Positions 2,769 through 5,112 of a stretch of DNA of 64,000 nucleotides are shown in pieces. The notes beneath the pieces were generated by a model, which did not search any database, was not told the DNA's origin, and saw only the letters and a program-made list of their open reading frames with translations. Each line of letters opens with the position of its first letter. Positions within the stretch are counted from its first letter, which is position 1. Made by a program: the position numbers and the translations under genes. This stretch comes from Castellaniella sp. MT123 (lineage in GTDB: Bacteria; Pseudomonadota; Gammaproteobacteria; Burkholderiales; Burkholderiaceae_B), in NCBI RefSeq assembly GCF_039614765.1, contig NZ_CP154879.1:868001-932000 (forward strand), read 5' to 3'.

Positions 2769-3224
2769 ATGAGTATTGTAGACAACCGCAAAGCCACCCA
2801 CGACTACTTCATCGAAGAACGCTTCGAGGCCGGCCTGGTCCTGGAAGGCTGGGAGGTCAAGGCGATCCGCGCCGGCCACGTCCAGCTGAAGGAAAGCTAC
2901 GTCATCGTGCGCGACGGCGAGATCTGGATCCTGGGCATGCACATCAGCCCGCTACCCACCGCGTCCACCCACATCCACCCCAACGCCACCCGCACGCGCA
3001 AGCTGCTGCTGAAGGCCGAGGAGATCAGCAAGCTGATCGGCAAGGTCGAACAGCGCGGCTACACCCTGGTGCCCCTGAACCTGCACTACAAGGGTGGCCG
3101 CATCAAGCTGGATTTCGGCCTGGGCCGCGGGAAGAAACTGCACGACAAGCGGGACACCCAGCGCGACAAGGACTGGGCGCGGGAAAAAGAGCGGTTGATG
3201 AAGCACGATACGAAGCGGGGGTGA
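2769..3224 (+). CDS. smpB: SsrA-binding protein SmpB
   Basis: SmpB (151 residues, normal length) binds tmRNA and delivers it to stalled ribosomes for trans-translation. Recognisable are [21 protein letters not shown] near the start, the GWEVKAIR and [10 protein letters not shown] strands of the OB-fold-like barrel, and the basic tail [18 protein letters not shown], which is required for ribosome decoding-centre insertion. The gene is divergent from ratA. No tmRNA gene was found downstream; instead, the cassette-like island begins about 100 bases after the stop. Confidence 0.97.
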
Positions 3225-3326
3225 CGGATCTGAATATCGCGGGAGAAGAAGCACTTCAAGAGTGAGTAGGAAATGGCTGTTAACGGCCATAACCAGCCTC
3301 TGGCGACCGTCCGCTATTGGGGAGGC
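3225..3326. repeat. Intergenic dyad between smpB and the attC-like site
   Basis: Non-coding stretch containing a perfect 9-base inverted repeat, ACCAGCCTC at 3292-3300 and GAGGCTGGT at 3322-3330. Its right arm runs into the end of the attC-like element. No T run follows on either strand, so it is not a classical terminator. It may end smpB transcription by another route or be part of the recombination-site structure. Confidence 0.45.
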
Positions 3327-3382
3327 TGGTAACGCCCAGATTTAACGGCGCGCAGCGCGTCCGCTGGAATAAGTTGTTAGGC
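3327..3382 (-). repeat. attC-like integron recombination site
   Basis: Read on the minus strand, this 56-base element starts with the R'' core GCCTAAC (3382-3376) and ends with GTTACCA (3333-3327), close to the R' consensus GTTRRRY. Between them CCAGCGG and CCG...CTGG can pair, with the unpaired bases and the GC-rich apical hairpin (CGCGCTGCGCG) expected of an attC site. Size and order (R''-L''-loop-L'-R') match integron cassette attC sites as I know them. It lies 12 bases after the stop of the small membrane-protein gene on the same strand, as the attC of a cassette should. Confidence 0.65.
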
Positions 3383-3394
3383 CAACCTGTTGCA

Positions 3395-3706
3395 TTAGCG
3401 GCCTAACCCACCAACAGCGCAAGCAAGCACCCCAGCTACTGCAAGCACCAACGAAAGACGACCACCTATTACTTTGAACTTTCGGTATTTGACGAGGGCC
3501 TGCCCAAATTCTTGGGTAGCGAATGTATTTGGTGTCAGCAGCTCGCAGAAATACGAATGCCTACTTTGTGCAAGCAACGCAAAGATTGCCACCATTGCAC
3601 CGCCTGAAACAATGTATGGCGTGGGCGACGAGCGCCACAGACAGACAAGGACGCCCAACAGGGCCGCGATGGCAATGATCACAGCGCTGCAATTGCCACA
3701 ACACAC
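3395..3706 (-). CDS. Small hydrophobic membrane protein in cassette island, unknown function
   Basis: Unrecognised protein of about 103 residues with predicted membrane segments near 8-24, 32-46 and 83-100 and a polar middle section. I chose the GTG at 3706 because AAGGTGG lies six bases upstream; GTG at 3682 (95 residues) is the alternative. The DNA is visibly richer in A/T and uses codons such as ATA and AAA that neighbours avoid, consistent with transfer. It starts only 16 bases after the GCCTAAC core that ends the glycosylase gene and stops 12 bases before the attC-like site. Cassette genes of this sort are often unique to their array. Confidence 0.55.
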   Translation of the reverse strand: MCCGNCSAVIIAIAALLGVLVCLWRSSPTPYIVSGGAMVAIFALLAQSRHSYFCELLTPNTFATQEFGQALVKYRKFKVIGGRLSLVLAVAGVLACAVGGLGR

Positions 3707-3721
3707 GCCCCACCTTGAGTT

Positions 3722-3728
3722 GTTAGGC
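3722..3728 (-). repeat. Orphan attC R'' core (GCCTAAC) at end of glycosylase gene
   Basis: On the minus strand GCCTAAC overlaps the TAA stop of the pyrimidine-dimer glycosylase gene, the usual position of the attC start in a cassette. A complete attC does not follow: the next gene begins 16 bases on, and the only GTTRRRY-like heptamer (GTTGGGC, 3659-3653) lies inside that gene without a matching inner stem. The site looks truncated, so the two genes may now move as one unit, if they move at all. Confidence 0.5.
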
Positions 3729-4163
3729 GCCACCTTGCGCCCGCTCCCATGATGCCACTTGTCCGGGCCGACGGCAAAACAGTGGGTGGCAAGCCGGAGA
3801 ATCCGTGCCCTGCAGCTGTGCAAACCTCTCGGGGCTGCGCGTTGCCAGCTTGCGTAGCAAGTGCTGCCACTCAAACTCGACTTGGCCAGAGCTGACCGTA
3901 ATGGGCTGTGCAACCCGGGCCGGCCCGAGCTTGGATTTGTTGAATGTATAGCCGCGTGCGACAGCCTCGGCATAGACGCCTGCCAAATACGAATTGATGG
4001 CGACGCGCGGATGTGCGTGAGCCCAGAACCGCTCAAGTTGCGGATGGTGAAGATACCCACGCGTTTCGCCGCGAAGCACTGCCCTGGCAAGTAACGACTC
4101 GCGCCACAAGGCGACCAAACCTTGCGGATCGAGGTACTTGGGATGCAATGACCATAAACGCAT
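3723..4163 (-). CDS. Pyrimidine dimer DNA glycosylase family protein
   Basis: Protein of 146 residues that I recognise as the pyrimidine-dimer DNA glycosylase family (PF03013 type). Signature segments are MRLWSLHPKYLDPQGLVALW at the start, LLARAVLRGETRGYxxHPQLERF (24-46), and YLAGVYAEAVARGYTFNKSK (about 59-78). Family members are related to T4 endonuclease V and are thought to cut DNA at UV-induced cyclobutane dimers; activity here is inferred. The ATG is eight bases after a GTTAGGC core and the stop overlaps GCCTAAC, exactly the placement of a gene in an integron cassette. The C-terminal 30 residues look non-conserved. Confidence 0.82.
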   Translation of the reverse strand: MRLWSLHPKYLDPQGLVALWRESLLARAVLRGETRGYLHHPQLERFWAHAHPRVAINSYLAGVYAEAVARGYTFNKSKLGPARVAQPITVSSGQVEFEWQHLLRKLATRSPERFAQLQGTDSPACHPLFCRRPGQVASWERAQGGA

Positions 4164-4170
4164 TTGTGAC

Positions 4171-4210
4171 GCCTAACTACTGAATATACGAACTCGACGT
4201 TCAGTTATAC
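4171..4210 (-). repeat. Short attC/attI-like site upstream of glycosylase gene
   Basis: Read on the minus strand, a 40-base element ends in GTTAGGC (4177-4171). Its left part contains AAC-TGAA that can pair with TTCA-GTA-GTT on the right (inverted repeat ACTGAA 4179-4184 and TTCAGT 4200-4205). The ATG of the glycosylase gene follows eight bases later. The left core (TATAAC) departs from the consensus RYYYAAC, so this may be a degenerate attC, or the recombined left boundary of the island. Confidence 0.45.
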
Positions 4211-4428
4211 ACTTGGCGGCGCATACCCTCGCGGCAGCACCAGGTGTTTGATTCGATGAGAATGCCGCCTCCCCAGGTCCAGCTGTCCAAGGCGAGTATA
4301 GCCTGACGTCGATGGTGTGGCGCTTGCGCTACGTTGACGTTTTTTCGACGGCATGCGGAGGCCCAGTGTCCGCTATGCAGCGGTGCGATTCGAGCCGCGA
4401 AGGTCCGGTTGGGGTCGCAACCAGCCCC
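4211..4428. other. Non-coding spacer between cassette island and ogt
   Basis: No gene is visible on either strand. On the minus strand TATACT (4300-4295) resembles a -10 box that could drive the glycosylase gene, but no good -35 box lies at the right distance. I looked for an integrase gene, a tRNA and a tmRNA here and found none. Confidence 0.35.
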
Positions 4429-5112
4429 TCACCCCACCCGGAATCCTTCCAGTTCCAGCAACTTCACCTTCCTTCCCAGCCCTCCCCCATACCCGTTCAA
4501 CGTATGGTTGCTGGCCAGGATTCGGTGGCAGGGAATGATGATGCTGATGGGGTTGCTGCCGACGGCGGTACCCACGGCGCGGCCATAACCAGCCCCCAGG
4601 CCCGCTTGCTCGGCTAGTTGGCCGTAGGACAGCGTCGAACCGCAGCGCACCGCCAACAGGGCCTGCCAGACGCGCTTCTGAAAGTCAGTCCCGGGAGGAT
4701 CCAGTGGAACATCAAATACCTGCCGCGCACCGCGCCAGTATTCGTCCAGTTCCTGCGCGGTGCGGTTCAGTACGGCCAATGCGTCATCCGGCGTGTCATC
4801 CTGCAGCATCCGCAGAGATGAAACAATGGATGCCGGCAGCGTGGCAGCGCGAGCCATATCGCCAGCCAGAATCGCATCCATGCCAGGCAGCTGTTCGTCT
4901 GCGGCGTCAGGCCGCACTGCCTTGAAGGATCGGATCGGCTTTCCCTTTGCCATGCCGGCAGAGGGATCGGAAATATCGTCGGCTGTGGTATCCATGCCAG
5001 GAACGGCCGGACAATCCCGCTGATCGGTGAAATGCAGGCCTGTCAGGCTGTAGGCATCGGCAGTCAGCAGGATGTCGCCCAACGGCGACGGGACAATGGC
5101 GTGAAATGACAT
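4429..5112 (-). CDS. ogt: Methylated-DNA--[protein]-cysteine S-methyltransferase
   Basis: Suicide enzyme that removes alkyl groups from O6-alkylguanine in DNA by transfer to a cysteine. The C-terminal DNA-binding domain is clear: FQKRVWQALLAVRCGSTLSYGQLA, the RAVGTAVGSNPI segment with the arginine finger and asparagine hinge, and the acceptor-site motif IIPCHRIL, then GYGGGLGRKVKLLELE. At 227 residues it is longer than the usual 160-180 because of a low-conservation insertion of roughly 60 residues (about 35-95) in the N-terminal domain. The start begins with the family-like MSFHAIVPSPLGDILL. It is monocistronic between the cassette island and the ppsA terminator. Confidence 0.93.
   Translation of the reverse strand: MSFHAIVPSPLGDILLTADAYSLTGLHFTDQRDCPAVPGMDTTADDISDPSAGMAKGKPIRSFKAVRPDAADEQLPGMDAILAGDMARAATLPASIVSSLRMLQDDTPDDALAVLNRTAQELDEYWRGARQVFDVPLDPPGTDFQKRVWQALLAVRCGSTLSYGQLAEQAGLGAGYGRAVGTAVGSNPISIIIPCHRILASNHTLNGYGGGLGRKVKLLELEGFRVG

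Follow-up and report, generated by a model that had tools for sequence, protein, structure and literature searches.

Two genes in cassette form between ogt and smpB

The window analyzed here is a stretch of 64,000 nucleotides from the one-contig, 3.37-Mb genome of Castellaniella sp. MT123 (NZ_CP154879.1, positions 868,001 to 932,000), in which a block of two genes (844 bp, window positions 4176 to 3333, minus strand) lies between ogt and smpB and very probably represents two integron cassettes without a resident integrase. Going down the minus strand, ogt is followed by ...CAGTAG, TTAGGC, seven bases and the ATG, at 4163, of a pyrimidine dimer DNA glycosylase gene (cassette 1; 3723 to 4163, minus strand, 146 amino acids). 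From the sequence and an analysis of the junctions, the left edge of the block (4171 to 4177, minus strand) was read as G(4177)/TTAGGC, the slash marking the junction and the G being assigned to the host. The glycosylase stop codon TAA (3725-3723) lies inside GCCTAAC (3728-3722), with which the remnant of a first attC site begins (attC1; first 14 bases, GCCTAACAACTCAA, 3715 to 3728, minus strand), as identified by alignment with a same-species relative. Cassette 2 (3395 to 3714, minus strand) is a small membrane-protein-like open frame with its stop at 3395; its start is lost and its exact start is unsure. It is followed by attC2 (3327 to 3382, minus strand), with R'' GCCTAAC at 3382-3376 and a cut after G 3333, beyond which 3332-3327 (TTACCA) were read as host. 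In all, the window has a single complete attC and a half site, plus a left cassette edge that is not itself an attC. The original prediction, made from the letters of the window, had the glycosylase gene starting eight bases after GTTAGGC and its stop overlapping GCCTAAC; its description and its coordinates hold.

To locate attC sites, a covariance model (R1) was built from 16 attC sites at eight loci of other genera, with the window and the same-species locus L007 left out. R1 matched attC2 at 3382-3329 (25.6 bits; E = 6.3e-5 for 64 kb), confirming with our own model the attC-like element proposed to close the second gene. In a search of the MT123 genome (150 of 2482 first-look candidates scored), attC2 was the top of three R1 matches at E up to 1 (E = 0.0034), and matches at that level were found in 5 of 10 genomes of the genus (three in MT123, two in G101, three in G006, two in G005 and one in G001). 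Rfam at its gathering threshold gave no match in the whole window.

Several further candidates were rejected. An R1 match at 3728-3653 (E = 0.036) was discarded as a whole site after alignment with L007, where the real right half is present: the attC part of the match is limited to its first 14 bases, and the sequence that R1 took for a right core falls by chance within the following gene. At the 4177 edge, where the original prediction noted GTTAGGC, the cassette edge stands and a third attC does not: R1 gave no match there at E up to 10, and the fold was no better than 47 of 200 shuffles. The exact pattern GTTAGGC...GCCTAAC occurs at one place in the genome (3376-3407, spanning R'' and the last part of the second gene); it carries no weight, because a backwards control also matched once.

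A same-species relative with an intact inner attC

L007, a locus from a Castellaniella sp. metagenome-assembled genome (MAG), has the same block in the same position relative to ogt and smpB. L007 was taken to belong to G101, a genome assigned to the same species in the genus search, in which the place of the glycosylase gene agrees with the L007 contig range. Neighboring proteins are 98.6 to 100% identical between L007 and the window, with the exception of an RnfH-like protein (93.8% over the aligned part) and the second-cassette product. Between its two genes, L007 carries a complete attC1 of 69 bp (L007:4436-4504; R1 score 53.5 bits, 5e-11 genome-wide in G101) whose fold was equalled or bettered, on each strand, by only 1 of 200 shuffles, and R1 recognized a second attC at 4887-4940. 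The window lacks 90 bp present in L007, namely the last 55 bases of attC1 and 35 bp belonging to the beginning of cassette 2; the two strains also differ by 1 bp and by a 14-bp tandem unit present twice in L007 and once in the window. The proposed “cluster or the remains of one” fits, with remains in the window and a cluster of two attC in L007. Cassette 1 has the integron core consensus (GTTRRRY) at its 4177 edge, its stop inside R'' and a complete attC1 in L007, which is the anatomy of an integron cassette.

The second gene has no single open frame through it in L007 and has lost its start in the window, and was therefore regarded as disrupted in both strains; from its sequence the membrane-protein-like gene looks disrupted, with the true frame unsure without relatives. 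Relatives of its product were found in none of 273 other genomes in a sample of the class, plasmids gave no match at E up to 1, and none of 24 pattern matches in viral contigs was confirmed.

Identity, origin and expression of the glycosylase

Residues 1-77 of the glycosylase match positions 1-78 of the 81 in PF03013 (Pyr_excise; 74.8 bits against a cut-off of 23; E = 7e-21), and judging from this family the enzyme should cut DNA at UV-induced pyrimidine dimers. NCBIfam held no family for it at E up to 0.001, and the sequences of solved structures gave no match at E up to 1. Within the genus, 4 of 10 genomes have a PF03013 match (MT123, G101 and, as lower-scoring copies elsewhere in the genome, G002 and G006). 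All four codon differences between the window and L007 are synonymous, a pattern that fits a kept gene, though four is few.

A scan of genome contigs for homologues of the glycosylase returned 55 loci, 52 of them near full length (L007 included). An attC call stands right beside the glycosylase gene at 12 of these 52 loci (11 of 51 without L007), nine calls being upstream and six downstream. Six of the nine upstream calls end nine positions before the ATG (eight in the window), and 5 of the 6 downstream calls (4 of 5 without L007) start within the last codon, an arrangement also seen in the window. In the tree, the window glycosylase groups with those of L007, L008 and L009 (support 100/99), of which L008 and L009 are Rhodanobacteraceae MAGs. 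Seven attC calls were made in the stretch around L008, which at 87% identity is the closest homologue from outside the species; around L009 there were none. The tree requires nine changes of the label “attC-flanked”, against a mean of 11.8 after shuffling (16 of 500 shuffles as low), which means that either the gene switched context often or sites went unrecognized. The only plasmid record of the glycosylase was from Tsukamurella at 49% identity, and thus no plasmid donor was found. From these relationships we infer that the glycosylase cassette was transferred from a Rhodanobacteraceae-like integron. A literature search of open-licence papers showed, among the papers listed, none on a pyrimidine dimer glycosylase integron cassette.

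A scan of 3100-4600 gave one promoter-like site (plus strand) and three terminator-like sites (two on the plus strand and one on the minus strand, inside the second gene), where shuffles gave 0.6 and 1.5, so that the scan is weak evidence either way. On the minus strand it showed no promoter-like site, and no terminator-like site between ogt and the glycosylase gene, which makes read-through from ogt plausible; the glycosylase would then be read from the ogt transcript.

Integrases, neighboring genes and distribution in the genus

The absence of an integrase, first noted for the 64 kb, extends to the whole MT123 genome (G000), in which TIGR02249 (integron integrase) gave five matches, none over the cut-off; comparable weak matches also occurred in 14 of 14 control genomes. 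Elsewhere in the genus, G005 has a complete integron integrase beside a Sul1-type dihydropteroate synthase, with an IS6-family transposase nearby (L135 6806-8772), and the best R1 match in the 15 kb of that locus reached only E = 0.47. G006 has two attC, three cassette-like genes and an adjoining integrase fragment (L125 2128-4580); this locus is a decayed small integron in a sister species. Within MT123 itself, a lone attC-like site was seen on C1 at ∼730.6 kb (L124 6604-6663, minus strand; R1 E = 2.1e-4 in 35.7 kb, 0.02 genome-wide). It lies immediately upstream of a defence gene of the ApeA/HEPN type (L124 5199-6587), and the same stretch carries TrwB-like and TrwC-like conjugation genes.

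The block is bordered upstream by ogt, encoding a methylated-DNA cysteine methyltransferase (4429 to 5112, minus strand, the same strand as the cassettes), and on its other side by the convergent smpB (2769 to 3224, plus strand). Host-side spacers separate it from both genes, at 4178 to 4428 toward ogt and at 3225 to 3332 toward smpB; the latter contains, directly after the block, an inverted repeat (ACCAGCCTC ... GAGGCTGGT, window 3271-3332). In four other species of the genus smpB and ogt are adjacent without the cassettes, with gaps of 84 bp (G002), 33 bp (G004), 72 bp (G006) and 15 bp (G007), so that the interval does vary between relatives, which the original prediction had named as support. 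In G001, G003, G005 and G008 the block is not found in the ∼1.4 to 1.5 kb after smpB; ogt is not there either, which makes these genomes uninformative on the site. The ogt-block spacer of ∼250 bp (4178-4428) alone exceeds the whole ogt-smpB gap (15 to 84 bp) of the sister species.

How the block may have arisen

Insertion junctions of the attG type read G/WT, and both edges of the block read G/TT (left, G4177/TTAGGC; right, G3333/TTACCA). The R'' box GCCTAAC in attC2 is perfectly complementary to the left edge of the block, GTTAGGC, and not to GTTACCA. Rejoined as a free circle, attC2 folds at −12.2/−12.4 kcal/mol, more strongly than in its standing, chromosomal form (−9.0/−8.7 kcal/mol; z = −0.65 and 0.0; 124 and 240 of 500 shuffles as low). 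Given this complementarity and the stronger fold of the circle, the imperfect R' is best assigned to the host, as insertion at an attG-type site would leave it; the element proposed at 3382-3327 is retained, and what was described as its near-consensus R' is probably the cassette/host junction (G/TTACCA).

On balance we lean toward insertion by an attG-type route, because the outer edges read as a host G/TTACCA split open by TTAGGC...GGGCG. An integrase from elsewhere, not in the present genome, would have placed the two cassettes between ogt and smpB in an ancestor of the species, the cassette attC recombining with ordinary GTT-containing chromosomal sequence (an attG-type site). A 90-bp deletion in the window strain then removed most of the inner attC and fused the cassettes into a unit that an integrase could no longer separate. 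The fuller picture, in which cassettes were inserted behind a host DNA-repair gene by the attG-type route, the inner attC was then deleted, the repair gene was kept and its neighbor is decaying, so that a mobile cassette is becoming resident, is put forward tentatively.

A number of observations weigh against this reading. No empty site was found; across 60 relatives the flanks gave no match longer than ∼50 bases. Taking out the block leaves 360 bp of spacer, compared with 15 to 84 bp in the four sister species, and ∼300 bp are unexplained. The fold check on attC2 turned out unfavorably, since as it stands the site is not better than shuffles (92 of 200 at least as good, and 54 of 200 on the other strand), an argument against its being fully functional as it now stands; the circle form, too, folds only modestly (z = −1.8; 32 and 27 of 500 shuffles as low). 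Some loci of glycosylase homologues supplied sites to R1; L007, L011, L013, L016, L019 and L041 gave it none. Cassettes 1 and 2 are lower in G+C (0.60 and 0.54) than the window (0.647), but the flanking spacers are low as well (0.59 and 0.55), so that composition cannot tell block from spacer. Finally, the window strain, with one complete and one half attC, falls short of the two attC that IntegronFinder 2.0 requires by default for clusters of attC sites lacking integron-integrases (CALINs), according to the available part of PMC9024848; L007 reaches that number.

The overlong leftover spacer leaves room for a decayed integron or for a larger import. It is unlikely, though still the strongest competitor, that the block is the remnant of a complete local integron that lost its integrase gene and attI and kept its last two cassettes. 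The integrase fragment beside two attC in G006, of the same genus, and the ∼300 bp of surplus spacer beside the block would suit such a history, whereas no integrase remnant appeared at the locus among the own-genome matches (threshold E = 0.001), the two edges agree with one insertion at G/TT, and the host-side TTACCA departs from the GTTRRRY consensus. Still less probable is that the cassettes were passengers of a larger imported piece of DNA, spacers included, brought in by homologous or illegitimate recombination: the genes that bound the spacers are core genes in their normal order, and the ogt-smpB interval showed no mobile-element gene, even if their length relative to the sister species and their lack of a long match in the 60 relatives are what an import would leave. 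That there is no integron feature at all, and that chance inverted repeats surround ordinary genes, is very improbable despite the weak fold of the standing attC2 and its moderate R1 score, given the complete attC1 of L007 and the homologues that sit between attC sites with nearly the same spacing.

Comparison with known systems

It is debated whether small cassette clusters that have no integrase come from the decay of integrons or from direct insertion at ordinary sites. On this question the ogt-smpB locus contributes two strains, one keeping the inner attC and one having lost it, together with a likely Rhodanobacteraceae-like donor group and readable junctions. Its cargo gene looks kept while the neighbor decays, and a small number of additional strains could tell the two routes apart.

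The locus is a CALIN remnant and an example of a known phenomenon, not a new type of system. CALINs are common, 2961 having been counted in a RefSeq survey (PMC9024848, available part). Like them, the locus has attC cassettes, recognized by a covariance model (our own R1), and no integrase over the cut-off in the genome, with two attC in L007; it differs in that the second attC of the window strain is cut by the 90-bp deletion. Cassette insertion at attG sites is described by Loot et al. 2024, as cited in the accessible text of PMC12901181 and PMC12444791. As far as those texts go, the likeness is that the edges seen here fit G/TT in chromosomal sequence that is neither attC nor a recognized attI, and the difference is that insertion is here deduced from the anatomy of a natural locus, the empty site not being seen among the 60 relatives. 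Small CALINs between core genes in Xanthomonas, such as the two cassettes of X. citri pv. citri, are reported in the available part of PMC12444791; like the present locus they have few cassettes and no intI, but they belong to another host order, and no strain pair losing the inner attC is mentioned in that part of the paper. Compared with the PF03013 family, the glycosylase described here stands apart in being cassette-borne.
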